Of a stretch of 64,000 nt of DNA, positions 15,301-60,171 are shown piece after piece. The notes beneath the pieces were generated by a model. That model saw only the letters and a program-made list of their open reading frames with translations. It did no database searches and had not been told where the DNA came from. The DNA comes from Eubacteriales bacterium. GTDB taxonomy: Bacteria; Bacillota; Clostridia; Oscillospirales; CAG-382. Each line of letters starts with the position of its first letter. Positions within the stretch are counted from its first letter, which is position 1. Position numbers and translations under genes: made by a program. Location: NCBI GenBank assembly GCA_028705495.1, contig JAQWDK010000003.1, positions 124,001 through 188,000 on the forward strand. Reading direction: 5' to 3'.

Positions 15301-16292
15301 TCGGGCTTGACTTCTTCCGGCCCGTCACGGAAGTCACCGAGTATGCCGAAAATATGGTTGTCCCTTTTGTTTGAAAGGTAGAACCGCTCAAGCCTTGCAA
15401 AAAGACCGTCGTCTTTTTCACCGCCGAAAAGCAGTGATGTGATAACTATAAGGGTTTTGTCAGTAGCGTATTCGCTCTCAAGTCTGAAAACCGTTTTACC
15501 GGAGACAGCGTCTCTAAAGACGGTGTCTATTTTACTGCCCACCGCTCTAACGAAAAGCGAGAACAAGAAGTCGGAAATTATTTGTGATGATTTATAGAGC
15601 GGTAAAACGGCAAAAATCGCCCACACATCGCAAAGCCTTGAACAAATTCCGAGAAGCAAAGCAAAAATTAGAATTTCTGAAATAAAAAACGATGTTTTTA
15701 TACCCTTTTCCGGAAATAAGAGAAAGCCGATATGCGTCTTTTTGTCATGGGATAAAGCGACAAGTCTTTCTGCTTCATCATTGTATGATACGCCGTTTTT
15801 TTCAGCGAGTTCTTCAAGCTTTTTGCGGTACGCGCTTTTTGTAGCCTTATCCATTTTGGAATACTCTCTTGTGTATTCGCGCTCTAAAATCCGTTCGGCG
15901 GGAGACACGCATTCCAAAAATTCTTCAAAGTCCTCGCTTCCCAATTTGCGGAGCAGTTCTATTGCCGGTCCGCAGTTTTCAGCTCTTGCAATCTCAATTA
16001 TTGCCGCCGCAGCAAGAAACACGGGAACGCTTGACAGCTCCCCGTAGCCGAGATTTGTGTAATGGGAAAAAAAGCCGCAAAGCTTTTCTATGTCTAAGGC
16101 AAAGGAATACTTTTTGCAATATTTGTCGCAAATTTCCGCCATGTTTTCATGCTTTGCAAGGATAGCCTTACTGCGTTTCAAACCATCATAATTGCGGCTG
16201 ATTAGGTAGTAGTTGTCGGTAATCCACCTATTACCGCCTTCAAGATAGATTCTCTTAATTTTACCGAACGCCGCCTGAACTTGTCTCTGCAT
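9381..16292 (-). CDS. Cyclic beta-1,2-glucan synthase-like protein (GT84 + glucoamylase-like + GH94)
   Basis: A 2303-residue multidomain membrane protein. Order: an N-terminal helical region; membrane segments; a GT84-type glycosyltransferase with the DxD motif LTLDADTN near residue 410 and RWIRGDVQN downstream; more membrane segments near 550-660; a central (alpha/alpha)6 glucoamylase-like domain (LSTLQKMQKWNGHLYNWYAT); and a C-terminal GH94 phosphorylase-like domain with CDWNDG near residue 2060. This is the NdvB/ChvB architecture, which polymerises glucose from UDP-glucose into beta-1,2-glucan, closes it into a ring and sets its length. I start it at the ATG at 16292 (GGAG eight bases upstream) rather than 16331. 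Stand-alone, no exporter nearby. Confidence 0.88.
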   Translation of the reverse strand: MQRQVQAAFGKIKRIYLEGGNRWITDNYYLISRNYDGLKRSKAILAKHENMAEICDKYCKKYSFALDIEKLCGFFSHYTNLGYGELSSVPVFLAAAAIIEIARAENCGPAIELLRKLGSEDFEEFLECVSPAERILEREYTREYSKMDKATKSAYRKKLEELAEKNGVSYNDEAERLVALSHDKKTHIGFLLFPEKGIKTSFFISEILIFALLLGICSRLCDVWAIFAVLPLYKSSQIISDFLFSLFVRAVGSKIDTVFRDAVSGKTVFRLESEYATDKTLIVITSLLFGGEKDDGLFARLERFYLSNKRDNHIFGILGDFRDGPEEVKPEDDGIIENAKRVISELNKKHGGGFVLLARKRVKNADGLYGGRERKRGAVTDAVRFIGGEKDAIDYFEGDSSAVSGVKYILTLDADTNLSLGAVSELLCAAVHPLARPVIKDGRVVSGWALFQPSMAVSLESAAKTGFSRLIGGSGGVDAYQSAAYDKYQSVLGEGVFCGKGLFDADCFRELVIPKIPDGFVLSHDLPEGAILRTRLISDVTLSDSAPKSVLSYYGRAGRWIRGDVQNLGLLKKLGSPAGKYMIVENLINVLLPITQFTALFVVFLLSAFDFIGTAFSGILLIFILSSTLLPQLLGIISTPSRLFRRPRRRYFSRISHSVRRDLSRLFYEISAIAFSAQTTAAAAIRSAYRMLFSKKKLLEWVTAGEGEQGGSGFPLYASKMLPSAIIGAAIFVFAPFWTFRLLGLLWFCFPIAAYYISKPASGEDKKLSADCREYLIKQSAAMWSFFSKHVNSETNHLPPDNVQYEPVYARADRTSPTNIGLYLLSCLAAADFGFIDADELERRLRATLSTLQKMQKWNGHLYNWYATDTLDVIGGAYVSTVDSGNFVTSICTLREGLKEYGLLELSDEFAFLETEADFSVLYNPKKSLFSLGFEVGESGRQSEICYDLYMSEARTTSYYALAKGIVPKKHWAKLSRTLISGGGYIGMASWTGTTFEYFMPPLFLPVYDNSFEYEALRFAFEQQRKKHIAAGLSDGVWGLSESAFFSFDSEMNYQYKAVGVQKLGLKRYLTDEPVVSPYSSFLMLKISPESCVNNLKKLEEYGMIGEHGHYEACDFTPTRAGGSGFAVIKSYMSHHLGMSITAAANACFAEVFVRRFIRNPSMAAAYELLQEKVPDVSIYHDIAPEAKPAPVPPHTRSEGSIFSYSIQNPELRLVNSGRLTMLVGDLGHVSMRFGKVIINECDFDLFNAKSGFSLKLSGKAFVPTSGKEDESASFTVEHKDGAVSHIRTSGEFSGRARFSTEGKCIRIETLAGEKANCFAELEFPIALDDEQTFKAHPAFSKLSVSAEFIEGEKIILYSRKPKLKARPLFLAVALADEGVGFSFDTRLTDVRELVKPLMGRTGASVNPYLRIKTQELSGGRACFLISCAATKEEALSAIRSGRAKYKENGKKQGIYRHLQPAALSRVLGAIYFSSPVLSQAERVSGDIHSLWRYSISGDYPILLADTNDDSSVYESLILFRTLTIASVRCELVVVVREADRYARESRRSVMKAVSLAHCEAFLGRRGGVFVIDYEDFRIDESRNDYNYLLANSIDLLSLTEEGRSGGIIPEVVTQIENRENKFGEGIIKVEGGSFDENGGFIIDKSSGIPLEWSYITANHCLGSVQTQNSLGFSYFRNAQKNKLTEFSNNPYFPNRGERILMFVGGKAYDLCAVSSFVRFGEGKVIWQGSAGGIDYEMSLFVCEKFPVKLIKLSHSGGDGIVTALVLRPDGGRLAEITKLNQGVVCFRNLRKSKVYGFAGTVPSKIEAEGFNTEHSANSGVVTDFSSLFGEETLRRDCAAVYTKSSEVWFYVGAAPQQKTAEIISGMIDRSFAEEQEKAAAIFYKSLMPKPKEKLEAPFAVMYNHFMPYQVTISRFFSRCAYYQVGGAYGYRDQLQDSLMLMKTRPDLVRTHIVRCSAHQYEDGGVQHWWHPLREGVRTRCSDDFLWLPLVTAEYLRETGDGSVLDVKTRWLVSPELREGESERYEHAGLSEGKDSVYEHCVRALQRSLSFGKHGLPLMGSCDWNDGFSELGEEGRGESVFTAWLFIWAVREFGTQMIERGDERAEGLQKAANSVLGAIESYCFDGDRYLRAFTDNGEALGAFGSGEAELDILPQCMPAIVGGADEGRVSIALDMAYSMCFDRKWQIMKLFTPPFDKDTRKIGYIQSYVPGIRENGGQYTHASMWMALGLWRAGKKDKAIEAARALNPVIRCADKRLAEAYKIEPFVLSGDIYSNPKHPGRGGWSWYTGSAAWFWRLIDEIWE

Positions 16293-16387
16293 ATTTTTTT
16301 CTCCACTGATGTATTTTGTCATTGCCGGCAAATCAAAACTGCGGACTGTCTCTTAAATATTCTTGACTTTACCGGGAAATTTATTCA

Positions 16388-26064: not shown

Positions 26065-27180
26065 TTAACGCAATCTTCTCGGCGCAATTACGTATATGTA
26101 TTCTCTATCTTTCTCCGGCTGTGTTGGTTTTATAACAATACCCATAAACGCCGTCGTCATTTCGATATTAAGGCTGTCGTCCTTGCATGTTCTGAGTACA
26201 TCCATAAGGAATCTGTTATCAAGTCCAATCTCAAGGTCTTCACCCTTCTTTTTGACGGGTATGCAGTCGACAGCTTTACCAAACTGGTTAGAACAAGATA
26301 TTTCGATGCTGTCGTCGCCAATCATACACCTTACCGGGGGTTTGAGCTTGTCGTCAACCATCAGCGACACCCTCTCAAGGCAGTCGAGGAAGGGTACTGC
26401 TTCAACTTCAACGAAAATCTTCGGTTCTTTGGGAATAAGCCCCTCGTAATCGACATAATCGCCTTCAAGCAGTCTTGTGAAAAGAACAATCGAATCGAAT
26501 TTGAAGATTATATTCTTTCTTGTCAAACCGATGTTTACCGGTTCTTCGCTGTCACCTAAGAGTTTTACAAGCTCTGCAAGGGCTTTTCCGGGTATAACAG
26601 CTTTGTAACTTTCTATGTTGTTTGCGATAACACCGAATGCCTTGCGCACCGCCATTCTGACACCGTCAAGCGCCACGACGGTTATATCGGCACCGTCAAT
26701 CATAAAGCATTCGCCTGTGAGAATCGGTCTGCTCTCAGTCTGTGCGACGGAAAACAGCGTTGAAACAATAAGCTCTTTGAGAACCTTTCTCGAAATTGCA
26801 AAAGCTGACTCGTTGTCGAGCATTGGCATTGAAGGGAACGCACTCGCAGACATACCATGAATGTTAAACTCAGCGTTGCCGCCGGTTATTGTGGCGTTGT
26901 TCTTGTCGTCCGACTCGAATACCACATCATCATCCGGCATATTACGTACAATAGCGGCGATTTTCTGGGCGTTGATTATAACCTCGCCGTCCTCGCTATT
27001 GCGTACCGTGCCGACAGCTCTGACACCTTTTTCAAGGTCATAGCCGCTGATTGTCAGCTCGTCTCCCCTGACGGACAGTAAAATCCCTTCAAGTGCGGGA
27101 AGTGTCGCTTTTGATGAAGCTGCAGAATGCGCCGGAATTACAAGCGAAAGCAGCTCATTTTTATCAATTACAAATTTCAT
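26065..27180 (-). CDS. dnaN: DNA polymerase III beta sliding clamp
   Basis: 371 residues, the normal length, starting MKFVIDKNELLSLVIPAHSA. The three-fold repeated clamp domains can be followed, ending in the usual peptide-binding C-terminus (PTQPEKDREYIYVIAPRRL). It follows dnaA by 55 bases. recF, the usual next gene, is absent here and is found at 51581; tgt follows instead. Confidence 0.97.
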   Translation of the reverse strand: MKFVIDKNELLSLVIPAHSAASSKATLPALEGILLSVRGDELTISGYDLEKGVRAVGTVRNSEDGEVIINAQKIAAIVRNMPDDDVVFESDDKNNATITGGNAEFNIHGMSASAFPSMPMLDNESAFAISRKVLKELIVSTLFSVAQTESRPILTGECFMIDGADITVVALDGVRMAVRKAFGVIANNIESYKAVIPGKALAELVKLLGDSEEPVNIGLTRKNIIFKFDSIVLFTRLLEGDYVDYEGLIPKEPKIFVEVEAVPFLDCLERVSLMVDDKLKPPVRCMIGDDSIEISCSNQFGKAVDCIPVKKKGEDLEIGLDNRFLMDVLRTCKDDSLNIEMTTAFMGIVIKPTQPEKDREYIYVIAPRRLR

Positions 27181-27235
27181 ATACTTTAATTACCGCTTTA
27201 TCCCCTGCGGTGTTCCTCCGTTCCGAATTTTATAT

Positions 27236-28600
27236 TTAGGAATTCTTGATTGACTCAAGCAAGTCCTCGATTTCATTTTCAAGAGAAGCGTTGGTTTTCA
27301 GCTCCGCTTCAACATTAGTAACAGAGTTGAGTATTGTCGTATGGTCACGCTCAAAAAACCGCCCGATTGCCGGGAGTGACATGCCTATTGAGGAGCGCAT
27401 TATATGTATTGCGATGTTCCTTGCTCTTAAGATATTTGCGCTGCGTTTTCTGCCTTTTATATCAGAAATCGAGATACTATATCTCTCCGAAACCCCTCTG
27501 ACAACATTGTCCGCAGTCAGCTCTTTTGACTTTGATTCTGAGATTATATCATTCGCAGAACGCTTTGCGTTCTCAAGTGTTACCTCACTGCCTGAAACAA
27601 GACTGTAGGCATTGAGCTTTTTAATCGCTCCCTCGATTTGTCTGACATTGTCTTTGATGTTCTCCGCAAGGTAAGAAAGAACTTCAATAGGCATCGAGAT
27701 ATTAAGCGCTTCCGCTTTACGTTTGAGAATCGCCATACGCAGCTCATAGTCAGGCTGCTGGACATCAGCAATAAGTCCCCACTCAAAGCGTGAGCGAAGT
27801 CTGCCTTCAAGCAGCTGTATATCTCTTGGAGGTCTATCACTTGTCAAAACAATCTGTTTGTTCTGCTCATAAAGGGCGTTGAAGGTGTGGAAGAATTCTT
27901 CCTGCGTTCCTTCTTTACCTGCTATAAACTGAATATCGTCCACAAAAAGCACATCGGCGTTTCTAAATTTATCGCGAAATTCGACAGGCTTATGCCTCGC
28001 TAAGGACTCAATCATCTGGTTTGTGAAATCCTCACCTCTAACATAGAGCACATTAAAGGAAGGATGCTTTTTCTTTATCTCGTTTATCGTCGCAAAAAGA
28101 AGGTGAGTTTTGCCAAGTCCGGAGTCACCATAGATGAACAGCGGATTATAAGCGCGCGCAGGTGAGTTCGCGACTGCAATACATGCTGCATGCGCGAGTT
28201 TGTTTGAAGAACCGATGACGAAGTTTTCGAAAGTGTATTCGGGGTTCAAGCTTGGCTCTGGTGCTTGTCCGCTGCTTTCTGTGTGATCCTCGGTAATTTC
28301 TGCGTAAGGATTTTTGCGTGCGGTCGCTTCGGCAGCTTCTTGCTCAACTGCTTTTAAAGTAAATTTGACATCCACCGGAAACCCGAGTATTCTTTCAAGA
28401 TGAGTTTTTATCTCGTCTTTGTATTTATTTTCTACGATATCTTTTTTAAATTCGTTGTCAGCGGCAATATAAGCCGTTTCATCACTAACATACTTTAGCT
28501 CAAGACAGTTGAACCAAAGGCGCATTGTGAAATCGCTGTAATGCTGTGAGAGCGACTCGAGAACTCCGTCCCAAACATCTTTGAAAACTGCGGTTTCCAT
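27236..28600 (-). CDS. dnaA: Chromosomal replication initiator DnaA
   Basis: 454 residues with all four domains. N-terminal domain I is followed by an acidic linker, then the AAA+ domain with Walker A GDSGLGKTHLL, Walker B VLFVDDIQFIAGK and the sensor region LTSDRPPRDI. Domain IV carries the DnaA-box-reading signature FFERDHTTILNSV. AAAGGAATGG precedes the ATG. It heads a leftward block dnaA-dnaN-tgt-mutS-DUF2809-mutL. The 315 bases upstream hold promoters for both directions but no perfect DnaA box, unlike most oriC-linked dnaA genes. Confidence 0.98.
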   Translation of the reverse strand: METAVFKDVWDGVLESLSQHYSDFTMRLWFNCLELKYVSDETAYIAADNEFKKDIVENKYKDEIKTHLERILGFPVDVKFTLKAVEQEAAEATARKNPYAEITEDHTESSGQAPEPSLNPEYTFENFVIGSSNKLAHAACIAVANSPARAYNPLFIYGDSGLGKTHLLFATINEIKKKHPSFNVLYVRGEDFTNQMIESLARHKPVEFRDKFRNADVLFVDDIQFIAGKEGTQEEFFHTFNALYEQNKQIVLTSDRPPRDIQLLEGRLRSRFEWGLIADVQQPDYELRMAILKRKAEALNISMPIEVLSYLAENIKDNVRQIEGAIKKLNAYSLVSGSEVTLENAKRSANDIISESKSKELTADNVVRGVSERYSISISDIKGRKRSANILRARNIAIHIMRSSIGMSLPAIGRFFERDHTTILNSVTNVEAELKTNASLENEIEDLLESIKNS

Positions 28601-47746: not shown

Positions 47747-49894
47747 ATGAAATCTGGTGCGATTATTCTTGCAGGTGGTTTTGGCACAAGACTGCGCCCG
47801 CTGACTGAGTTTTTTCCAAAACCCCTCGCTCCCGTCCTTGCTAAGAGCGCATATGAACATATCCTCGACCTGCTCGCAAAGCACGGAATAAATAAAGCCG
47901 CTGCTGCCGTCGCATATAAAGCGGAACAGATAATGGCGATAAAGCATGACAAAGTTTCGGTCAGTTTTTTTACTGAAGATAAACCGCTCGGTACTGCGGG
48001 ATGTGTAAAAAATGCCGCTGATGCGCTTGATGAGAGTTTTGTTGTTATCAGCGGCGACGCAGTATGCGATTTTAACCTGACTACGGCAATCGAATACCAC
48101 AAAAAAAGCGGCGCTGAAGCGACAATTCTGCTCTCCCGTGTCACCTCACCCCTTGAATACGGCGGTGTTATGACGGAAGACGGCTATGTTTTGCGTTTTG
48201 TGGAAAAGCCTTCAAGACGGCAAGCACTGACGGACACAGTCAGCACCGGGGTTTACATTATCGAAAAAACTCTGCTTGAACGCGTTCCCGTAGGGGTACA
48301 ATATGATTTTGCAAAAGATATATTCCATAAAATGCAGAAAAACGGCGAAAAAATTGCCGCTTTCGTTTGTGACGGTTATTGGTGCGACATAGGCGATCTT
48401 GGGGCATATTACCGCTGCAATTTCGACGCACTCAGCGGAAAGATAAAACTAAACGGCGCACAAAGCACTGTTTTCAATGATTTTCAAGGCGAAAATGCGA
48501 CTGTTACAAAAAGTATAATACACAAAAATGTCCTCGTAGGCGGTGGAACAACAATCGACGAGAGCATAATCTGTGAAGGCGCTCGTATCGGCAGAGGTTG
48601 TGTCATTCCTGCCGGATGCGTTATCGGTGCTTTTTCTGTGCTTGGTGACGGTGTTGTACTGTCGCCGGGTACAATAATCGGGGTAAATAAAAAGATAAGG
48701 ACGGGTAGCAGTATGTTTTACAGTGGTGAAAGCGGAAGTATCTCGGAAGGAAAGCTAAGCGGAAAGTCAGCGACAATAGACTGCGCTTTTTGCCTGAGGC
48801 TCGGGCGCGCCTTCGGTACGGTTTTTGGAAAAAATGCACCCGTCGGCATCTCTTTTGGCCTCCACGCCGCCCTTCTTGCAGAAGCTTTTTCCTGCGGAAT
48901 CAGAGAAAGCGGCGCGCACTGTGTGACATGTGGTGAGGGTACAGTAGGGCAAGCATCAGCCGCGGTTCTTTCCGCCGCCCTCGGTGGTATTGCTCATATT
49001 GTAACGAGTGGTGAAAATGTTTTTATATCGCTATTCGATTCCCTTGGGCTACCTCCTGAAAGAAGCGTAGAAAGAAAGCTAACAGCTGAATTTCTCGACC
49101 GTAAACCACCAAAGACTTCTGGAAAACAAACCTTTTTTGATGCAGAAATTTCATATTATACTCTTCTTATTAGACTTTGCGGTGATCTATCGAAGTTGTC
49201 TCTCGTTGTCAGTTCACGCACTCCGCCTTTCTTTGCAAAACTGCTCGCCGCTTGCGGTGCAAAGATTGAAGTCGCCAATGAAAAAACCGGAATCGATATA
49301 ATTGAAGATATTTCAGGTCATTCAAAACCCATGTTTTATAAGCTCGATTTTTGGCACAGTGTAGCAGTGGCAGCAGCGGTCTTTCAAAAAGATGAAACAA
49401 AAAAATTTGCACTTCCCTATGTTTCTCCCGACTCCGTTGCAGACTATATACGCTCTCTCCCGGCTGAGGTTTTGTTCTATTCACCTTCTCCGTCTGATTC
49501 TTCGGACGCAGAAGCGAGAGAACTGGCGTCAAAGCAGCCTTGGATGAGGGACGGTTTTATGTTATGCTCTGTTCTCTGCTGTGCATCTGCGAAACTTGGA
49601 GTAAAACCAGAAAACCTTACGGAAATATTGTCCGGTTCACTCCGTGAGTTCCAAACAGCTGAAAGAGAACTTGAATATGACGGCGAAAAAATTGCCGCTT
49701 TAATGCGCAAGGTATGCGATAAGAAAGCCGCACCCCAAAATGATGGAGTACGGCTTGAACTTGACAAAGGCAGCGTAATAATTGTGCCATCCGATACAGG
49801 TTTTAGACTTTTTGCACAGTCAGTATCAGCGGAAGCGGCCCAAGAGCTTTGCGCCGATGCAGAAAGGTTGATTTCGGACACTGATAAAGCTTAA
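47747..49894 (+). CDS. Sugar-phosphate nucleotidyltransferase fused to a degenerate phosphomannomutase-like domain
   Basis: 715 residues. Residues 1-235 are a nucleotidyltransferase (ILAGGFGTRLRPLTEFFPKPLAPV; later GVYIIEKTLL and YWCDIGDLGAY). Residues about 240-320 form a left-handed hexapeptide repeat (IICEGARIGRGCVIPAGCVIG). The last 380 residues resemble phosphomannomutase/phosphoglucomutase but look inactive. I see no active-site Ser loop (T-A-S-H-N-P) or metal loop (D-G-D-x-D-R), and the phosphate-binding RPSGTEP is VPSDTGF. Similar three-part proteins are annotated as mannose-1-phosphate guanylyltransferases; the actual sugar is uncertain. GAAGGAA precedes the ATG. Confidence 0.82.
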   Translation: MKSGAIILAGGFGTRLRPLTEFFPKPLAPVLAKSAYEHILDLLAKHGINKAAAAVAYKAEQIMAIKHDKVSVSFFTEDKPLGTAGCVKNAADALDESFVVISGDAVCDFNLTTAIEYHKKSGAEATILLSRVTSPLEYGGVMTEDGYVLRFVEKPSRRQALTDTVSTGVYIIEKTLLERVPVGVQYDFAKDIFHKMQKNGEKIAAFVCDGYWCDIGDLGAYYRCNFDALSGKIKLNGAQSTVFNDFQGENATVTKSIIHKNVLVGGGTTIDESIICEGARIGRGCVIPAGCVIGAFSVLGDGVVLSPGTIIGVNKKIRTGSSMFYSGESGSISEGKLSGKSATIDCAFCLRLGRAFGTVFGKNAPVGISFGLHAALLAEAFSCGIRESGAHCVTCGEGTVGQASAAVLSAALGGIAHIVTSGENVFISLFDSLGLPPERSVERKLTAEFLDRKPPKTSGKQTFFDAEISYYTLLIRLCGDLSKLSLVVSSRTPPFFAKLLAACGAKIEVANEKTGIDIIEDISGHSKPMFYKLDFWHSVAVAAAVFQKDETKKFALPYVSPDSVADYIRSLPAEVLFYSPSPSDSSDAEARELASKQPWMRDGFMLCSVLCCASAKLGVKPENLTEILSGSLREFQTAERELEYDGEKIAALMRKVCDKKAAPQNDGVRLELDKGSVIIVPSDTGFRLFAQSVSAEAAQELCADAERLISDTDKA

Positions 49895-49956
49895 TAAAAG
49901 ACGCACCTTATTTAAAACAAAATGCTTCTAAAAGACCAAGTGTGCAAATCTTTTTC

Positions 49957-50169
49957 TTTTCCACAGCTTTTTCAAAAGGAAATCCAAAGAAATTTTTAGC
50001 CTTTTTTCATTACCCAATAAAGCGAATTTGCCTTTTCCACAGAATGCACATGCCCTACTACTAATACTACTAACTCTATATACTATTATATAGCAGCGTA
50101 TTTGGTTTTTCAGGAAAATCAAAGTCCACAGGGTTTTGGGTGTGGAATTCAACAGAACGCTGTGGAAAA
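49957..50169 (+). other. Origin-like element, left copy (inverted relative to 54713-54935)
   Basis: Within a 402-base gap. Order: TTTTCCACA (49957-49965), a 33-base block identical to the right copy's complement (49957-49989), TTTTCCACA (50033-50041), a 13-base spacer with GC, then CTACTACTAATACTACTAAC (from 50055), an AT tract to 50095, AAGTCCACA (50122-50130), TGTGGAATT (50141-50149), TGTGGAAAA (50161-50169). DnaA box, spacer, repeated CTA/ATA triplets and AT-rich tract is the layout of the basal unwinding region with DnaA-trios described in Bacillus. The boxes here are one or more mismatches from TTATCCACA. Opening would proceed rightward, toward recF. Confidence 0.75.
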
Positions 50170-50251
50170 GGCAATTAATATATGAAGAGTAGTAGAGGTG
50201 CGGCAGAATTTTGCTTTAAATATCAGCTGATATAAAACCAGGACTCGTAGT

Positions 50252-50296
50252 AAAGGAGGCCCCTTCAAAAGGAGCCTCCTTTGCTTGTGTTTTTTT
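50252..50296 (+). terminator. Intrinsic terminator facing right, between the left origin element and the next gene
   Basis: AAAGGAGGC (50252-50260) and GCCTCCTTT (50274-50282) form a perfect 9-pair stem, followed after GCTTGTG by TTTTTTT. It would stop rightward transcription leaving the origin element; on the minus strand no T-run follows. Confidence 0.65.
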
Positions 50297-51472
50297 CTAT
50301 TTGTCTAACACTTTTCGGTCTAATGCATTCATAAATGCTGTTGCTGTATAAACTTTATATTTTCCTACAATTTCGCCGTTATCAATCTGATAGCTTCCAT
50401 TGCCGTTATTGGTTAACACGCTTTTTGGCGCAGGGTTTAATATAAGAATTTTTTTGTGTTCGGATTCATAGCCAAAGTGATATTTTCTGGAGAACTGAAA
50501 AAGTCTTATTTTAAAAAGAGTTATCGAATAAATAAAAGCGCAAATTCCATTCGAGTAGATTGCGAGTGGTGTATTTTTTCGCTTTGCACTGATAAATTTA
50601 CAAGAATAGCATTTATCCCCCACTGTAACAGTAAAACTCTCGCCTTTTTTAATTTTAATAAGGTTTTTAAAGCTATCATTAATTTCTGAAAGCTGGTATC
50701 CTTTTTCTTCGCATATCTCTCTGAGTCTTTTTATACATGCTTTACGTTTTGATGACGCCCGAAGCAGCCTGATTACAGGTGGAAAAACTACCAAAATAAA
50801 AACAATGACTAAAACTGCAGGATTTAGAACAAGTTTCAAAAGTTCCTCGAAAACTGGAGTTAAAGAAACAAGTGCGGAGACTAAAATATTAAGTAAAATT
50901 ACAGCGGTGGCATAGATGATAAAAACAAATGTTGTCCCTCTTGAATACGCTTTTTTGTTGTCTTCGGGAAGGTTGTATTTATCTTTTTGCCAAAATCTTA
51001 TTGCGGAAAGATGAGCTAATATGTAAAGAATAAAAAGAACAGGAAAAAGGACCGCCAAAGCTTTTAATTTTTCCGTTTGAAATAGAACATCGAGAGATCT
51101 GAAAGTCCATTTTAGAGGTAAAATCATATAAATAACGACGAAAATGAATGCTTTTAACCATATCTCTCTTTTCTTAAAAATGAAACGAAAGTTCTCTTTT
51201 AAGGTGTTTTTTTCACCTGATTCAATATAAAGGTCATGTATTGGCTCATTATAAATAACCGTTTGCCTTACAAGTGAATAAAAAAACGGAACCATTAAGA
51301 AAATGGAAATTAAAAACGGAGCCTTTACATAAATGTCTTCTTCCGTGAACTCCAAAAGATTTGAATAAATCGGCAAAAAATAAAGCAAATTAGACATAAG
51401 TACGCTCATCAAAACAACAGTTAGAAACCTATAGGCAGTAATATAATACCGCTTCAATTTTTCTTTTATCAT
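50297..51472 (-). CDS. Membrane protein of unknown function, AT-rich
   Basis: 391 residues from the ATG at 51472 (AGGGG eight bases upstream). About six hydrophobic segments lie in the first 240 residues, then a basic cytoplasmic-looking part (RLLRASSKRKACIKRLREIC) and a small Cys-containing globular tail (DKCYSCKFISAKRKN). No family recognised. Its codons are visibly richer in A and T than the neighbouring recF and miaB genes. It is the only leftward gene between the two origin-like elements. Confidence 0.65.
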   Translation of the reverse strand: MIKEKLKRYYITAYRFLTVVLMSVLMSNLLYFLPIYSNLLEFTEEDIYVKAPFLISIFLMVPFFYSLVRQTVIYNEPIHDLYIESGEKNTLKENFRFIFKKREIWLKAFIFVVIYMILPLKWTFRSLDVLFQTEKLKALAVLFPVLFILYILAHLSAIRFWQKDKYNLPEDNKKAYSRGTTFVFIIYATAVILLNILVSALVSLTPVFEELLKLVLNPAVLVIVFILVVFPPVIRLLRASSKRKACIKRLREICEEKGYQLSEINDSFKNLIKIKKGESFTVTVGDKCYSCKFISAKRKNTPLAIYSNGICAFIYSITLFKIRLFQFSRKYHFGYESEHKKILILNPAPKSVLTNNGNGSYQIDNGEIVGKYKVYTATAFMNALDRKVLDK

Positions 51473-51522
51473 CACCAAAACCCCTACGTTTTTTTTGCTG
51501 TTCTATTTTAACATATTCAATG

Positions 51523-51551
51523 TTGAAAATCCATCAAAATTAATATATACT
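51523..51551 (+). promoter_or_regulatory. recF promoter
   Basis: TTGAAA (51523-51528), 17 bases, TATACT (51546-51551), 30 bases upstream of the recF ATG. recF therefore has its own promoter instead of relying on dnaA-dnaN. Confidence 0.75.
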
Positions 51552-51580
51552 AAGCTGATAATATATTTTATTGGTGGGAT

Positions 51581-52666
51581 ATGCTTCTTAATTCTGTTTC
51601 CTTCTACAATTTCAGAAATAACGACACCGCAACCCTGCCTTTTTCCGAAGGAGTTAACGTCATCTGCGGAAAAAATGCTGCCGGGAAGACAAACATCCTT
51701 GAAGCGGTGTTCTTTTTTGCTGCCGGAAAATCCTTCCGCTCCTGTAAGGAAAGAGATATGATCCGCTTCGGGGAACAGGATGCGAAAATTGAGATAGCTT
51801 TCAGCGGTGCTGAAGGCACTCATACACTTGCCGCTTCCCTTTCAAGGCGCAGAAAAAAGGAGATGTTCCGCGACGGTATCAAAATCAGCCGCCTTTCGGA
51901 GTATCTCGGAAAATTCCGCGCAGTTGTTTTCACTCCCGACCATCTCAGCCTTGTAAAAGGCTCACCCGAAAGAAGAAGACGGTTTCTCGATATTGCAATC
52001 TGCCAAAATGCGCCGAAATATGTCGCGCTGCTTAATGAATACAACCGTGTTCTACTCCAGAAAAATGCGCTGCTTCGTTCTTTTGAAGCTTCTCCCCAAC
52101 TTCTGGAGGTGTACAACGAACGTCTTGCCTATCTTGGAGCGCAAATCAGTGTGCGCCGCTACAGATACCTCTCAAGGCTTGGTAAATCGGCGGAAGAAAT
52201 TCACTCAGAGATGTCAAGCGGAACGGAACAGCTAACTCTCAGATATATCTCCCCGATTTGTTCGACAATCACAAGCGAAGAAGAATCAGAAAAAGCCTAT
52301 CTTTCGCTTTATAAAGCAAAAACTGCAGCGGAGTTAAAATGCGGAGTTTCGCTCGTCGGCTCTCACAAAGATGACTTTGAAACGCAGATTAATGCCCGAG
52401 ACGCTAGGCTTTTCTGCTCACAAGGTCAGCAGCGGAGCGCGGTGCTGTCGCTGAAACTTGCCGAAGGGGAACTCTCAAAGTTTTACACAGGCGAATATCC
52501 GGTGTTTTTGCTCGACGACATTCTAAGCGAACTCGATGTCGGAAGACGCTCGTTTATCCTTGGAAACCTTGTCGGCAAACAGGTCATTATCACCGCCTGC
52601 GAGGATATACCAACACCCGTTGACAATAGGATTTTTGTTGAAAACGGAAAGTATACAGTTCAGTGA
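51581..52666 (+). CDS. recF: DNA replication and repair protein RecF
   Basis: RecF loads RecA at gaps together with RecO and RecR. 361 residues, normal length: FYNFRNNDTATLPF at the start, Walker A ICGKNAAGKTNILEAV, the ABC-type signature CSQGQQRSAVLSLKLAE and Walker B VFLLDDILSELD. The start at 51581 (GGTGGG upstream) agrees with other RecF proteins. In most bacteria recF follows dnaN; here it lies 24 kb from dnaN between two inverted origin-like elements and leads into miaB (41-base gap). Confidence 0.97.
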   Translation: MLLNSVSFYNFRNNDTATLPFSEGVNVICGKNAAGKTNILEAVFFFAAGKSFRSCKERDMIRFGEQDAKIEIAFSGAEGTHTLAASLSRRRKKEMFRDGIKISRLSEYLGKFRAVVFTPDHLSLVKGSPERRRRFLDIAICQNAPKYVALLNEYNRVLLQKNALLRSFEASPQLLEVYNERLAYLGAQISVRRYRYLSRLGKSAEEIHSEMSSGTEQLTLRYISPICSTITSEEESEKAYLSLYKAKTAAELKCGVSLVGSHKDDFETQINARDARLFCSQGQQRSAVLSLKLAEGELSKFYTGEYPVFLLDDILSELDVGRRSFILGNLVGKQVIITACEDIPTPVDNRIFVENGKYTVQ

Positions 52667-52707
52667 ACTAAAATTAAATATACTAAAAATTTTCAAAGGC
52701 AAAGTAA

Positions 52708-54132
52708 ATGGCGAATATTATAGATTTTACAAATGAAATAGAACAGGCGAAGTATTCTTCACTTGTCAAAAATGCACTTTCTCATCGAACTTCCTCATCG
52801 GCTGAAATAATCACCTTCGGATGTCAGCAAAACGAAGCTGACAGCGAACGCATCGCGGGTCTTTGCTCTCTTATGGGCTTTGACACAAACCCAGCCGGGT
52901 CGATGAGTTCTGATGAAATTTCTGTTGCGGGACTTATTATAATAAATACCTGTGCAATCAGAGAACATGCGGAACTGAAAGCGCTCTCAAACACTGGCCG
53001 ACTTAAAAAACTCAAAGAGACAAATCCGGAGCTTATCTTGGGAATTTGCGGATGTATGGTTCAGGAAAAACACCGCTTCGACCAGATAAAAAAGAGCTAC
53101 CCATATGTCGATTTTATGCTCGGAACTGACAGCATACATAAACTGCCGGAGGTTCTCTGGCGGGTTATTTCCGAACAAAGGCGAATTTACGGAGTTTCAG
53201 CTCTTCCCCATTCCGAACTTGGTGTTATCGAAGAAAATATGCCTGTACTTCGTAAATCGCCCTTCAAAGTTTGGGTTCCGATTATGTACGGCTGCAACAA
53301 TTTCTGCACCTACTGCGTTGTTCCGAGAGTTAGAGGGCATGAGAGATCAAGGAGCGAGGCGGCAATAATCGAAGAAGTCAAAACACTCCTAGACGGCGGA
53401 TGCAAAGAGATTACGCTGCTCGGGCAGAATGTCAACTCGTACAGTGGAGAAAACGGTGGTTTTGTAAAGCTGCTTGAAAACCTTTTGTCCCTTGACGGAG
53501 ATTTTAGACTGCGCTTTATGACTTCCCACCCAAAGGATGCATCTGACGAATTAATCGAGCTGATGAACCATCCGAAAATGGCAAAACATTTTCACCTTCC
53601 GTTCCAGGCTGGAAGCGACAGGATCTTAAAGCTGATGAATCGCCGCTACACAAAGGAAAAATACCTTGAAAGAGCGCTTAAAATCAGGCAAGCCTCACCC
53701 GACTGTGCAATAACGACCGATGTCATCTGCGGTTTTCCGGGAGAAACAGCGGAGGAATTTGAAGAAACTCTCGAAGTCGTCAGAGCGGTTGAATTTGATA
53801 CACTGTTTTCTTTTGTTTTTTCACCGAGGAAGGGGACACCTGCGGCAAATTTTGACGACCAGATTTCTCATGACGAAAAAATCCGCCGTTTTGAGAAGCT
53901 GACAAAGCTGACAAACAGCCTATCTGAAAAGAGAAACTCTCTCCTTGTTGGCAAGACCGAAAGGGTTTTATGCGACACTGAAGCTGACAACGAAGGTTTT
54001 TCCGGCGGAAAAAGCAGTCAGAATAAGCTAATCAGGTTCCAAAATCCAGAAAACCAGATAAAAGTTGGAGAATTTGCCGATGTTGAGATAACAGAAGCAT
54101 TCAGAGCTTCACTTAACGGCAAACTTTTGTGA
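52708..54132 (+). CDS. miaB: tRNA-2-methylthio-N6-dimethylallyladenosine synthase
   Basis: Radical-SAM enzyme that adds the methylthio group to i6A37 of tRNA. 474 residues. The N-terminal domain supplies three Cys for the auxiliary cluster (FGCQQNEADSE, INTCAIREHAE, GICGCMVQ). The radical-SAM motif is CNNFCTYCVVPRVRG, followed by ITLLGQNVNSY, and a C-terminal TRAM domain. The first motif is Q-Q-N where many MiaB proteins have Q-M-N. It is followed by ylbF after about 100 bases, as in other Firmicutes, but mutS, which usually comes next, is elsewhere. Confidence 0.96.
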   Translation: MANIIDFTNEIEQAKYSSLVKNALSHRTSSSAEIITFGCQQNEADSERIAGLCSLMGFDTNPAGSMSSDEISVAGLIIINTCAIREHAELKALSNTGRLKKLKETNPELILGICGCMVQEKHRFDQIKKSYPYVDFMLGTDSIHKLPEVLWRVISEQRRIYGVSALPHSELGVIEENMPVLRKSPFKVWVPIMYGCNNFCTYCVVPRVRGHERSRSEAAIIEEVKTLLDGGCKEITLLGQNVNSYSGENGGFVKLLENLLSLDGDFRLRFMTSHPKDASDELIELMNHPKMAKHFHLPFQAGSDRILKLMNRRYTKEKYLERALKIRQASPDCAITTDVICGFPGETAEEFEETLEVVRAVEFDTLFSFVFSPRKGTPAANFDDQISHDEKIRRFEKLTKLTNSLSEKRNSLLVGKTERVLCDTEADNEGFSGGKSSQNKLIRFQNPENQIKVGEFADVEITEAFRASLNGKLL

Positions 54133-54235
54133 CTTGGTTACATTTATAGAATCGCTAATAATATATAATTAAACTATAATGATTTACCTTAATAAGGGTA
54201 TAATTTATATAACATAACCGAAAGGAAGAACCAAA

Positions 54236-54634
54236 ATGAACAAAAAAATTACAGACCTTGTCTTAGAACTCGGAAAGGCTATTGAAGCTGATCCGGAAAT
54301 ACTCAAATATCGTCAAGCAAAAAACGCTTATTACAATGATATGGCGCTGATGACCAAAATCAGCGAATACAACGCACTTCAGCAGAAACTTGAAACAGAA
54401 GCTAATAAGGAAAACGCTGATGAGAAACACCTCGCTGACCTTGAAGCATCTGCAGATGAAAAGCGTAACGAAATTTATGATAACAAAACTTATCTTGCAC
54501 TTCAGGACTCAGAAAACAAAATCAACGAGCTTCTCAACCTTGTCAACGATGAAATTATGCGTAGTGTGACTGGAGAAGAGCCTCATTCATGCGGAAGCGG
54601 CGGATGCAGCGGATGCGGTGGCGGCTGTCATTAA
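54236..54634 (+). CDS. YlbF/YmcA-family protein with a Cys-rich C-terminus
   Basis: 132 residues, strongly helical (LELGKAIEADPEILKYRQAK, later NKINELLNLVNDEI), the YlbF fold of the Bacillus Y-complex (YlbF-YmcA-YaaT), which influences RNase Y-dependent mRNA processing, competence and sporulation. The tail CGSGGCSGCGGGCH holds four Cys and a His. Members of the Y-complex bind [4Fe-4S] clusters, so this tail probably does too. GAAAGGAAG precedes the ATG. Whether it corresponds to YlbF or YmcA is not decided by the sequence alone. Confidence 0.85.
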   Translation: MNKKITDLVLELGKAIEADPEILKYRQAKNAYYNDMALMTKISEYNALQQKLETEANKENADEKHLADLEASADEKRNEIYDNKTYLALQDSENKINELLNLVNDEIMRSVTGEEPHSCGSGGCSGCGGGCH

Positions 54635-54712
54635 TTCCCACCTTAATAGATTGTTAACCATCCGATCAAAGTAAATTACAAGTCTATTGTTGTTTTTTGG
54701 TCACAAATACAG

Positions 54713-54935
54713 TTATCCACAGAGTTATCCACACAATCCACAGCTTTACACAGGGAAAACCCTGTGGACTTTGATTTTTCTAAAAAACCAAATACGCTGC
54801 TATATAATAGTATATAGAGTTAGTAGTATTAGTAGTAGAGCGTGTGTATTCTGTGGATAACTCGAACTTTTTAAAAACGGCAACCCAAAAAGAATTTTTA
54901 TGCTTTGGATTTCCTTTTGAAAAAGCTGTGGAAAA
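54713..54935 (-). other. Origin-like element, right copy, with three perfect DnaA boxes
   Basis: Within a 346-base gap. TTATCCACA at 54713-54721 and 54725-54733, weaker CAATCCACA (54734) and TGTGGACTT (54763-54771). Then AT tract 54795-54817, the triplet run 54818-54838 (TTAGTAGTATTAGTAGTAG reading plus), a 13-base spacer, a perfect TGTGGATAA (54852-54860), and TGTGGAAAA (54927-54935). The complement of 54756-54860 matches 50033-50137 at 99 of 105 positions without gaps; 54903-54935 matches 49957-49989 at 33 of 33. Opening would proceed leftward, toward recF. This copy has the better boxes and is the stronger oriC candidate. Confidence 0.82.
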
Positions 54936-54980
54936 CTAAAAGTTTTACACAGAGAGAAAAATTACAATTCGGAGGCGTTT

Positions 54981-55793
54981 ATGAAACTATTTATTTCAGC
55001 AGATATCGAAGGCACTTGCGGAATTTGCGACTGGCAGGAAACCAATATCGGAACGCCCTACACAGATTTTTTTATAACTCAAATGACAAAAGAAGTAGCC
55101 GCAGTTTGTCGTGCGGCTCTTAATAATGGTTTTTCTGAGGTTGTAGTAAAAGATGCTCACGACAGCGCGCGGAATTTGATTCCAAACCTTCTGCCCCGCG
55201 GAACAAAGCTAATACGCGGCTGGAGCGGCGACCCGCTGGTGATGATGTCGGGAATAGACAGCAGCTTTGATGCGGCAGCCTTTACCGGATGCCATTCAAA
55301 AGCAGGAAGCGGTGGAAACCCGCTTTCCCACACTATGTCAACAAAGATGTTTCTTGTAAAAATAAACGGAGAGCCGGTAAGTGAATTCGATATAAACTCA
55401 ATGACAGCTTCTTATTTCGGCGTTCCGAGTGTGATGCTGACAGGAGATGAGGAGCTTTGCGAGAAGGCGAAGAACGATTTACCATACATAAAAACAGCAG
55501 CTTTAAGCAGAGGTTTCGGCGGTGCTTCTTTTTCTCTTAACCCCGACGATGCCGTCGCCTTAATCGAGGAAAAAGCAAACGAAGCTTTTTCAGATTTTAA
55601 AGCCAACAAAGTGCGCGAGAGCGTGAAAAAACTGCCGCAGCAATTCTTTGCGGAACTCACATATAAAGACCATGTCGCAGCATATAGAAAATCATTCTAC
55701 CCGGGCGCAAAACTTTCTTCCGACCCGAAAACGGTGGAATTTAGAACAGATGACTTTTATGAGCTTCTGCGGTGCTTTTTGTTTTTACTATGA
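54981..55793 (+). CDS. D-aminopeptidase, M55 family (DppA-like)
   Basis: 270 residues, usual for the family. Zinc ligands are visible as Asp8 and Glu10 (SADIEGTCG), a His in KDAHDSARN near residue 60, and a His in TGCHSKAG near residue 104. DppA-type enzymes form self-compartmentalised decamers that cleave D-amino-acid dipeptides such as D-Ala-D-Ala from cell-wall turnover. A strong ribosome site (GGAGG) lies 9 bases upstream. It begins 45 bases after the right origin-like element and converges on the next gene with 3 bases between stops. Confidence 0.92.
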   Translation: MKLFISADIEGTCGICDWQETNIGTPYTDFFITQMTKEVAAVCRAALNNGFSEVVVKDAHDSARNLIPNLLPRGTKLIRGWSGDPLVMMSGIDSSFDAAAFTGCHSKAGSGGNPLSHTMSTKMFLVKINGEPVSEFDINSMTASYFGVPSVMLTGDEELCEKAKNDLPYIKTAALSRGFGGASFSLNPDDAVALIEEKANEAFSDFKANKVRESVKKLPQQFFAELTYKDHVAAYRKSFYPGAKLSSDPKTVEFRTDDFYELLRCFLFLL

Positions 55794-56858: not shown

Positions 56859-58235
56859 ATGAGCACTGTTGCAGCAATATCAACTCCGGTAGGAAAAGGC
56901 GGAATAGCGGTTATAAGAATAAGCGGTGATGCGGCGACCGAGATCGCAGACCGTGTGTTTTTGCCTGCAAACAAAAAGCCGCTCTCCGAAACCGAAGCTG
57001 ACAGGGCTGTTTACGGCGGCATTTTTTGCGGAAAGACACAAATTGACGATGGAATTGCGGTCGTTTTCAAAGCTCCGAGGTCTTTTACGGGTGAGGACAC
57101 TGTGGAAATCTCATGCCATGGAGGTGTGCTGATAACAAAGCGTGTGCTTGAAGCGGTATTTGCCGCCGGAGCGCATCCTGCGGGAGCAGGTGAATTCACA
57201 AAGAGAGCGTTTCTCAACGGAAAGCTGTCGCTGAGTGAAGCGGAAGCAATCGGCGGCTTAATCGATGCGAAGACCGACAAATATATATCCGTAAGCCTTG
57301 CCCAGTCAAAGGGTTCTTTGGGTAAAGCGGTTAAGGCGCTGTCTGACAGGCTTGTGTTTTTAGCAGCTTCTGTTTACGCTTTTATCGACTATCCCGACGA
57401 GGATATGACGGATGTGAGCGTTGAAGAGATGAGAAAAGAGCTGAATTCGATCCTTTACCGCCTTGACGAGCTAATTTCCACCCACCGCTACGGAAAAGCC
57501 ATCAGCGAAGGGGTCGACACCGCAATTGTCGGCAAACCCAATACAGGCAAGTCGAGCCTTTTGAATATGCTCTGCGGCGAGGATCGCGCGATTGTGACGG
57601 ATATCGCAGGAACGACAAGAGATATTGTCACCGAACAAGTAAATTTTGGCGGTGTGCTGCTTAGACTTTCAGACACCGCAGGAATAAGACAAACTGGAAC
57701 AGACAGCATAGTCGAAGAGATCGGAATAAATAAATCAAAGAAAAAGATATCCGATGCGGAAGTGCTGCTTGCTGTTTTTGACGGCAGTATGCCACCGTCG
57801 AGCGAGGACAGGGAACTAATGATGCTCCTTGCCGACAGGAGAGAGGACACGGTTGCGATTGTCAACAAAACGGATATATTAGAGCCGAACAGCGAACTTT
57901 TAGCAGAGCTTAGGGAAAAGTTTAAGGGGGTTGTCAAAATTTCAGCAAAAACCGGAGAAGGCGCGGAAAGACTGCAGATGGAGATTGAAGAAATCTGCGG
58001 CAAGAGAAACCGTGTTTCCGAGGGCGAAATCGTCACAAGCGCGAGACAGAATGCCGCACTTTTGAAGGCGAGGGGATTTATCGCCTCCGCTCTTGAATCG
58101 CTGTCGCTCTACACCCAGGACATCGCATCGCTTGACATCGAAAACGCAGTCGCAGCACTTGATGAAGTCGACGCAAGAGTCGCCTCGGAGCAGATTGTAA
58201 ACGAAATCTTCTCGAAGTTTTGCGTAGGTAAATAA
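56859..58235 (+). CDS. mnmE: tRNA modification GTPase MnmE
   Basis: With MnmG it installs the carboxymethylaminomethyl group on wobble U34. 458 residues: N-terminal folate-binding domain (AAISTPVGKGGIAVIRISG), helical domain, inserted GTPase domain with G1 GKPNTGKSSLLN, G3 DTAGIRQT and G4 NKTD, and the C-terminal catalytic Cys in FCVGK (commonly FCIGK). AAGGG precedes the ATG. mnmE-mnmG pairs usually lie next to oriC, as here. Confidence 0.98.
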   Translation: MSTVAAISTPVGKGGIAVIRISGDAATEIADRVFLPANKKPLSETEADRAVYGGIFCGKTQIDDGIAVVFKAPRSFTGEDTVEISCHGGVLITKRVLEAVFAAGAHPAGAGEFTKRAFLNGKLSLSEAEAIGGLIDAKTDKYISVSLAQSKGSLGKAVKALSDRLVFLAASVYAFIDYPDEDMTDVSVEEMRKELNSILYRLDELISTHRYGKAISEGVDTAIVGKPNTGKSSLLNMLCGEDRAIVTDIAGTTRDIVTEQVNFGGVLLRLSDTAGIRQTGTDSIVEEIGINKSKKKISDAEVLLAVFDGSMPPSSEDRELMMLLADRREDTVAIVNKTDILEPNSELLAELREKFKGVVKISAKTGEGAERLQMEIEEICGKRNRVSEGEIVTSARQNAALLKARGFIASALESLSLYTQDIASLDIENAVAALDEVDARVASEQIVNEIFSKFCVGK

Positions 58236-58302
58236 TAACAGGCAGAAAACGTTGATTTTGAGAGCTTTGCAAGTTATAATAGGAATAATTGAAAGTTGAG
58301 CC

Positions 58303-60171
58303 ATGATTACATACACCAACAAAAATTACAATATAGCAGTCATCGGTGCGGGACATGCCGGATGCGAGGCAGCCCTTGCTGCTGCGAGGATGGGGTTCAG
58401 GACAGTTTTGTTCACCCTCACGATGGACCTCGTGGCGAATTTGCCATGCAATCCTTCAATTGGAGGGACGGGCAAGGGGCATATCGTCTTTGAAATTGAC
58501 GCACTTGGCGGCACGATGGGCAAGATTGCTGACGGCGCGATGCTCCAGAGCAGGATGCTCAATGTCAGCAAAGGCCCTGCGGTTCATTCACTGCGTATGC
58601 AGGCTGACAGGGTTCGTTATAGGGAGCTTATGAGACATGAGCTTGAGAGCTGTCCTAATCTACTTCTCTCTCAGGCCGAGGTCGTTGAAGTCAAGACCGA
58701 GAACGGCAAAGTTCGCGGCGTTGTCACCAAAACAGGAGCGTTTTACGAGTGCGATGCTGTTATTGTCACTACCGGAACATCCCTTGGCGGCAGGATAATA
58801 ATCGGCGAATGCGTCTATTCGGCAGGTCCGGACAACACTGTCGCAGCGACGGAGCTAACAAAAAGTCTCTTGAGCGCAGGTGTTAAAATGCAGAGGTTCA
58901 AAACCGGTACACCTCCGAGAGTCCACTCCGACAGCATCGACTATTCGGTTATGGAACGCCAGCCCGGAGACGAAAGGGCTGTACTTTTTTCTTCAAAAGA
59001 ATACGGTGTCAATAAAAACGACTGCTTTGTAACTTATACAAACGAAAAAACACATCAGATAATAAAAGATAACCTCCACCGCTCACCGCTGTTTTCGGGA
59101 ATTATCGAAGGTGTCGGAGCAAGATATTGCCCTTCTATCGAGGACAAGGTCACCCGCTTTGCCGACAAGGAGCGCCATCAGCTGTTTATTGAGCCGATGG
59201 GCGAGAACACAAAGGAAATGTACATCCAAGGGCTTAGCTCATCCATGCCCGAGGAAGTGCAGATGCAGATAATAAAGAGCATAAAGGGTCTTGAAAACGC
59301 TGTTGTAATGCGAACTGCTTACGCGATCGAATACGACTGCTGCGACCCGACACAGCTATATCCGACACTTGAGTTTAAGGAAATCAAGGGGCTCTATGGT
59401 GCTGGACAGTTCAACGGAACATCAGGTTATGAAGAAGCCGCCGCGCAGGGACTTGTGGCCGGAATCAATGCCGCACTGAAGCTTCAGGGTAGGGAGCCGA
59501 TGATAATCGACCGCTCCGAGGGCTATATAGGCACGCTCATTGATGATATTGTCATCAAGGGCACAAACGAACCGTATAGAATGATGACATCCCGAAGCGA
59601 ATACAGGCTTGTCTTAAGGCAGGACAATGCGGAAGAGAGGCTTATCGAAAAGGGCAGGTATGCCGGACTTATTGACGATGAAAGATACAGCCGCTTCCTT
59701 GCCGATAAAAATGCGCTTGAAGCTGAAGTCGAGAGGTTGCGGCGGCAGACGCTGCCGCTGTCGGAAGGGCTAAAAAAGGTGTTCACCGATGCGGGATTTG
59801 AAGAACCAAGTGGCGGAATCAAAATTGCCGAAGCGCTGAAACGACCGGGAATAACATACGAAGCGCTCGGGGAGCTTGACAAAGGCCGCGGGGATGTGCC
59901 GGAGTATATTAGAAACAAAGCAGAAATCGAGATAAAGTACGAGGGGTATATAAAAAAGCAGCTTGCCCAGATTGAGCAATTCAAAAAGCTCGAATCAAAG
60001 CAGCTGCCTGCGGATATTGACTATTCAAAAATTAAGGGAATCAGGATTGAGGCGGCACAAAAGCTCGCAAAAAACCGCCCTGCAAGTGTCGGACAAGCCT
60101 CGCGCATCTCGGGTATATCCCCGGCGGATGTGTCGGTGCTGCTGATATGGCTACAGCAAAGGGGCAGATAA
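58303..60171 (+). CDS. mnmG: tRNA uridine-5-carboxymethylaminomethyl modification enzyme MnmG
   Basis: FAD-dependent partner of MnmE. 622 residues: GAGHAGCEAALAAARMG binds FAD, NPSIGGTGKGH and GTFLxG-type VTTGTSLGGRIIIGE follow. The tRNA-binding C-terminus includes RISGISPADVSVLLIWLQQ. Length and motifs are normal. rsmG, parA and parB, which usually follow, are absent; a DUF6062 gene faces it instead. Confidence 0.98.
   Translation: MITYTNKNYNIAVIGAGHAGCEAALAAARMGFRTVLFTLTMDLVANLPCNPSIGGTGKGHIVFEIDALGGTMGKIADGAMLQSRMLNVSKGPAVHSLRMQADRVRYRELMRHELESCPNLLLSQAEVVEVKTENGKVRGVVTKTGAFYECDAVIVTTGTSLGGRIIIGECVYSAGPDNTVAATELTKSLLSAGVKMQRFKTGTPPRVHSDSIDYSVMERQPGDERAVLFSSKEYGVNKNDCFVTYTNEKTHQIIKDNLHRSPLFSGIIEGVGARYCPSIEDKVTRFADKERHQLFIEPMGENTKEMYIQGLSSSMPEEVQMQIIKSIKGLENAVVMRTAYAIEYDCCDPTQLYPTLEFKEIKGLYGAGQFNGTSGYEEAAAQGLVAGINAALKLQGREPMIIDRSEGYIGTLIDDIVIKGTNEPYRMMTSRSEYRLVLRQDNAEERLIEKGRYAGLIDDERYSRFLADKNALEAEVERLRRQTLPLSEGLKKVFTDAGFEEPSGGIKIAEALKRPGITYEALGELDKGRGDVPEYIRNKAEIEIKYEGYIKKQLAQIEQFKKLESKQLPADIDYSKIKGIRIEAAQKLAKNRPASVGQASRISGISPADVSVLLIWLQQRGR

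Follow-up and report, generated by a model that had tools for sequence, protein, structure and literature searches.

A bacterial chromosome has, by the textbook rule, one origin of replication. In Bacillus subtilis, DnaA bound to the pair of BUS boxes seeds an oligomer along the DnaA-trios and separates the strands, and the rules derived for such elements ask for a DnaA box with at most 2 mismatches, a spacer of at most 16 nt (typically 13) and at least 3 DnaA-trios (PMC8287927). The locus described here is built like the BUS of B. subtilis oriC, with a DnaA box and a degenerate box, a 13-nt spacer, CTA-type trios and an AT-rich tract in the same order; B. subtilis, however, has one BUS, located in dnaA-dnaN, whereas the present locus has two in inverted orientation, separated by 4.7 kb and located away from dnaA. 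The bipartite origins of B. subtilis, H. pylori and C. difficile also have their DnaA boxes grouped in two distinct intergenic regions close to the skew minimum, but they flank dnaA, while the two arms of our locus enclose recF-miaB-ylbF and an extra ORF. An origin parted from dnaA is known from E. coli (oriC at gidA/mnmG-mioC) and here too mnmE-mnmG are nearby (56.9-60.2 kb), although E. coli oriC is a single continuous origin from another lineage with another DnaA-box layout. DnaA-box groups outside the main origin are further represented by the B. subtilis DBCs and E. coli datA/DARS. To our knowledge, neither DBCs nor datA/DARS have been described as carrying a BUS with trios.

The putative double origins compiled by Gao in 2015 resemble our locus in having two origin-like regions per chromosome, some of them near the skew minimum, and that both regions function is unproven there too (PMC4403523). 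At that time there was no evidence for two functional origins on one bacterial chromosome, and the cases, such as Acidaminococcus fermentans with two dnaA genes, go back to duplicated dnaA regions or a putative island, or involve sites separated by 150-882 kb, none of them being presented as an inverted BUS pair lacking dnaA (PMC4403523). The program used for the BUS survey narrows each genome to one candidate (PMC8287927), so pairs of this kind would have been overlooked.

Anatomy of the two inverted arms

The host is an uncultured clostridium represented by one metagenome assembly, a draft genome of 2.55 Mb in 63 contigs that is about 97% complete. The window, that is, the whole stretch of 64,000 nucleotides under analysis, covers positions 124001-188000 of contig 37, and all coordinates given below without further mention are window positions. 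The features of the two arms are:

49941-50169, plus strand: arm L, a putative inverted copy of the origin module, flanked by a nucleotidyltransferase-like gene (47747-49894) and the ORF at 50297-51478
49957-49965, plus strand: outer DnaA box TTTTCCACA of arm L, inside the 33-bp block common to both arms
50033-50041, plus strand: BUS DnaA box TTTTCCACA of arm L; the 13-nt spacer after it starts with the degenerate 9-mer GAATGCACA
50055-50072, plus strand: six DnaA-trios CTACTACTAATACTACTA of arm L
50073-50093, plus strand: AT tract of arm L, with the same sequence as in arm R
50161-50169, minus strand: distal DnaA box TTTTCCACA of arm L
54713-54951, minus strand: arm R, the candidate origin module between ylbF and the M55-peptidase gene, a position at which it is conserved in the congener G001
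54713-54721 and 54725-54733, plus strand: two perfect DnaA boxes TTATCCACA of arm R
54800-54820, minus strand: AT tract of arm R
54821-54838, minus strand: six DnaA-trios of arm R
54852-54860, minus strand: BUS DnaA box TTATCCACA of arm R
54927-54935, minus strand: outer DnaA box TTTTCCACA of arm R, mirroring 49957-49965

Re-measurement reproduced exactly the identities given by the first-pass annotation, with 99 of 105 positions shared by 50033-50137 and the reverse complement of 54756-54860, and 33 of 33 by 49957-49989 and 54903-54935 in inverted orientation. A repeat finder delimited the corresponding blocks as 50033-50147/54746-54860 (115 nt) and 49941-49989/54903-54951 (49 nt), and none of 500 shuffles came near the match of either one. 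The stretch between the blocks (43 and 42 bp) is nearly equal in length in the two arms and has no detectable similarity between them. Read in its own direction, each arm presents an outer DnaA box, about 43 bp, a DnaA box, a 13-nt spacer containing a degenerate second DnaA box, CTACTACTAATACTACTA, an AT tract and more boxes, which confirms in both copies the succession of box, spacer, triplet run, AT tract and further boxes proposed at first. Arm L reads rightwards and arm R leftwards, so that their opening sides face each other over about 4.7 kb (4.6-4.7 kb). The BUS box departs from TTATCCACA at no position in arm R and at one in arm L, within the two mismatches allowed, and the 13-nt spacer and six trios of each arm likewise comply with the BUS rules; perfect TTATCCACA boxes number three in arm R and zero in arm L.

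The trio run CTACTACTAATACTACTA was found twice in a whole-genome pattern search, both times in the arms, and a DNA search with arm L as query returned the two arms only. Membership in a family of many dispersed repeats, which would have spoken against the initial proposal, is thus not seen. In the window, the BUS profile scored the arms at 48.6 and 45.9 bits and the next best site at 9.7 bits, both arms belonging to the training set, so that their own E-values are not independent. Homology of the arms to the dnaA-dnaN BUS of relatives was found by the profile as well as by direct alignments. A third, decayed BUS considered beside arm L at about 50176-50210 (minus strand) was rejected, its profile score being only 3.7 bits.

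The genes between and around the arms, together with dnaA and dnaN, are:

50297-51478, minus strand: ORF of 393 aa without Pfam match, not found in G001
51581-52666, plus strand: recF (Pfam SMC_N; family-wide RecF search)
52708-54132, plus strand: miaB (radical SAM, UPF0004, TRAM)
54236-54634, plus strand: ylbF-like gene (PF06133)
54981-55793, plus strand: M55 D-aminopeptidase gene, adjoining arm R on its right, likewise in G001
26065-28600, minus strand: dnaA (27236-28600) and dnaN (26065-27180), separated by a 55-bp gap without BUS; Pfam confirms DnaA

The BUS elements and the Pfam assignments bear out the arrangement first put forward, with two BUS copies facing each other across recF-miaB-ylbF and dnaA elsewhere, about 21 kb from arm L. 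The enclosed interval also holds the ORF 50297-51478, absent from the first-pass annotation, and that its homologue is missing from G001 says little on its own. The mnmE-mnmG genes (56859-60171) lie about 2 kb from arm R and are transcribed away from it. Elsewhere in the window, an unusually long minus-strand ORF of 2316 aa (9381-16331) was assigned by eye as a putative glycan phosphorylase.

Probable relocation from dnaA-dnaN and likely placement of the origin

The usual gene order in the family is dnaA-dnaN-recF, RecF having been located in 60 of the 63 family genomes, and in all 20 family loci whose contig includes dnaA as well as dnaN (20/20) a BUS is present in the gap between these genes. 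No BUS was found in the dnaA-dnaN gap of this genome (55 bp) or of its sole available congener, Clostridiales bacterium GWF2_38_85 (G001; 161 bp), and the ancestral origin site is therefore taken to be empty here. The single BUS of G001 stands at the ylbF / M55-peptidase junction, like arm R, within the order recF-miaB-ylbF-BUS-M55-mnmE and without arm L, and the skew minimum of the G001 contig, at 3.0 kb, is 3.2 kb from it. This shared junction, together with the disappearance of the BUS from dnaA-dnaN, indicates that the origin left dnaA in this genus. The gene upstream of recF in G001 differs from that of our genome and the G001 contig begins 3.1 kb before recF, so that the absence of arm L is drawn mainly from the whole-genome profile and pattern searches.

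This is one instance among several, since the separation of oriC from dnaA has occurred repeatedly within the family. In genera g4/g9 (L148 in G004, L149 in G016, L150 in G024 and L151 in G009) dnaN-gyrA is immediately preceded by a BUS and dnaA is not next to this BUS, as in G004, and the gene order in G009 is recR-BUS-dnaN-gyrA. Moreover, the BUS of relatives is on the same strand as dnaA in 14 cases and on the opposite one in 6 (e.g. L076, L077, L087 versus L057, L058), from which it follows that the module has flipped within the dnaA-dnaN gap.

The cumulative GC skew of the 198-kb contig has its minimum at 42.2 kb of the window, with a plateau at about 37-55 kb, and a minimum far from 50-55 kb, which would have weighed against the initial placement, was thus not observed. 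As the contig runs on for only about 19 kb beyond arm R on the right and the assembly is in 63 contigs, the coincidence of locus and minimum is a weak one, and the skew fits an origin in the 37-55 kb zone while being unable to separate arm L from arm R. Per-gene GC skew at fourfold sites was tried as a discriminator between the arms and dropped as too noisy. Nonetheless, given the homology of the arms to the dnaA-dnaN BUS of the family, the dnaA-dnaN gap without BUS and the skew minimum across the zone, the recF-region locus is very probably the chromosomal origin, which makes the original placement of the paired segments a likely one.

Copy number and the age of the left arm

A BUS profile built from 25 family BUS elements was run over whole genomes, with stricter filters for scans over 40 genomes. 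The profile matched in 44 of the 63 family genomes, nearly all with exactly one copy, and in 58/396 genomes of the order sample, where more than one match was obtained only in this genome, G029, G052 and G139. In the class sample 123 of 393 genomes had a match, 122 of these 123 with one copy and only this genome with two, counts to be read bearing in mind that identical BUS copies may collapse in short-read drafts; the 13 single-contig assemblies among the 123 have one BUS each. The second pair of G139 was rejected, as two contig ends overlap there within dnaA-dnaN (94.8% over 992 bp), and the two copies of G028, near-identical sequence at two contig ends, were counted as one. The pattern TCCACAN{10,15}CTACTA was discarded as a BUS counter in favour of the profile, its control counts being about as high as its match counts.

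BUS-plus-box sites away from dnaA-dnaN were found in five species of genus g10, two each in G029 and G057 (at matching places in both), one in G052 and two each in G043 and G045:

G029, contig 6 at about 4.0-4.2 kb (L144) and contig 30 at about 3.9-4.1 kb (L145): extra sites, complete and origin-like, DnaA-box cluster and BUS with trios
G057, contigs 4 and 32 (L142, L143), and G052, contig 53 (L199): extra sites, complete and origin-like, DnaA-box cluster and BUS with trios
G043, contigs 41 and 79 (L205, L206), and G045, contigs 46 and 94 (L207, L208): dispersed BUS-like copies within repeats of about 250-375 bp

The copies of one genome have in common a lineage-specific 30-mer that differs between lineages; that of G043/G045 is identical within and between both genomes and unlike that of the G029/G057 group. 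Two of the extra sites adjoin ordinary chromosomal genes, e.g. an Orn/Lys/Arg decarboxylase gene. At the extra sites of G029 there is no skew inflection, the skew minimum of this genome being at its dnaA-dnaN site, and a BUS copy therefore need not be a working origin. These sites suggest that an origin module gives rise to further copies of itself, which at times take the place of the original one. A copy-then-lose route could join origin relocation and flipping across the family, linking the g10 genomes, which have both old and new copies, G001, which has the new one alone, and this genome, in which the new one is accompanied by an inverted copy.

On the age of arm L, the BUS alignment gives 52/59 identities for each arm against G001 and 55/59 for arm L against arm R; the arms being closer to each other than to G001, arm L either arose after the species split or the two have been kept alike. 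Over the trios and AT tract the arms have 56 consecutive identical bases. The identity of the conserved blocks, next to an intervening stretch of 43/42 bp that lost similarity and kept its length, suggests that both arms are maintained, with selection on the two as the simplest explanation and patchy gene conversion or fairly recent copying as another possible source of the block identity. As G001 carries the equivalent of arm R alone, at the same junction, arm R looks like the genus-level oriC and arm L like a later inverted copy upstream of recF.

Proposed working and competing explanations

The reading that we favour, since both arms hold every sequence element for BUS opening, is that of a single origin zone, relocated from dnaA-dnaN, with two sites that serve as alternatives for opening, and we give it about an even chance of being correct. 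DnaA binding, unwinding and use of either arm are inferred by analogy with the B. subtilis BUS mechanism. In each arm DnaA would bind the outer boxes, dock on the BUS box together with the degenerate one and then extend along the trio strand, thereby opening the AT tract. Because every BUS element is kept in both, either arm could be opened; forks from the first to open would reach and copy the other in a matter of seconds, and the pair would thus act as one origin with one opening site used per round. It is likely that arm R opens, whereas for arm L the capacity to open is evenly balanced on the present sequence comparison.

The main rival, conceivable although we rather doubt it, is that only arm R is the origin and arm L a non-firing DnaA-binding copy, serving titration or timing, or slowly decaying. 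Arm R is the one conserved in G001 and the one with perfect boxes, the g10 genomes have extra BUS-like sites away from skew minima, and a precedent for a non-firing arm L is found in the DnaA-box clusters outside oriC that restrain initiation in B. subtilis (reviewed in PMC5295017). Nevertheless, the trios and AT tract, elements with a role in opening alone, are perfectly kept in arm L, and its BUS box, TTTTCCACA, is the one that occurs most often in the family. A DnaA-titrating cluster consists of boxes without an unwinding element, unlike arm L, and we know of no B. subtilis titration cluster described as carrying trios.

We consider improbable a true bipartite origin in which DnaA would bridge the arms and loop out recF-miaB-ylbF, opening needing both. 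DnaA-box clusters in two separate intergenic regions, a common outer box block and similar internal spacing would suit this arrangement, as would the C. difficile origin, both parts of which are required for opening in vitro (PMC7561715). However, in the known bipartite origins the two parts lie on either side of dnaA and the unwinding element is confined to one of them (PMC7561715), whereas here dnaA is at 27.2-28.6 kb, the arms flank recF-miaB-ylbF and complete trios and AT tract are present in both, 4.6 kb apart; a need for two arms is also at odds with the single arm of G001. Thus, of the initial description as "bipartite or duplicated", the second term is supported, the sole congener having one arm, and the first is not supported in the Bacillus/Helicobacter sense, as the arms do not flank dnaA and are both of the unwinding type.

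An assembly artefact, through strain mixture or a false join in a metagenome-assembled genome, might be suspected in a 63-contig draft, all the more so as the related G139 gave a false pair from overlapping contig ends, but it is very unlikely here: 6 of 105 positions differ between the arms, whose flanks are unrelated and which sit in inverted orientation on a single 198-kb contig, and arm R with its neighbours matches an independent assembly. Finally, although the gene block is bounded by inverted repeats, it is hardly credible that these are the termini of a mobile element carrying recF-miaB-ylbF, as no transposase or integrase occurs among the ORFs at 50297-54634 (the ORF without Pfam match, recF, miaB and ylbF), G001 has the recF-miaB-ylbF-BUS-M55-mnmE order without arm L, and the repeats are BUS modules that are single-copy elsewhere.

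Beyond the favoured reading, it is tempting, if only tentatively, to see in this locus two firing-competent inverted opening sites 4.7 kb apart amid an ongoing copy-then-lose relocation of oriC. In any case, two complete BUS modules stand at this distance from each other while relatives almost always show one, an arrangement that makes testable whether a second BUS can be used or must be silenced, as well as how an origin leaves dnaA in evolution.
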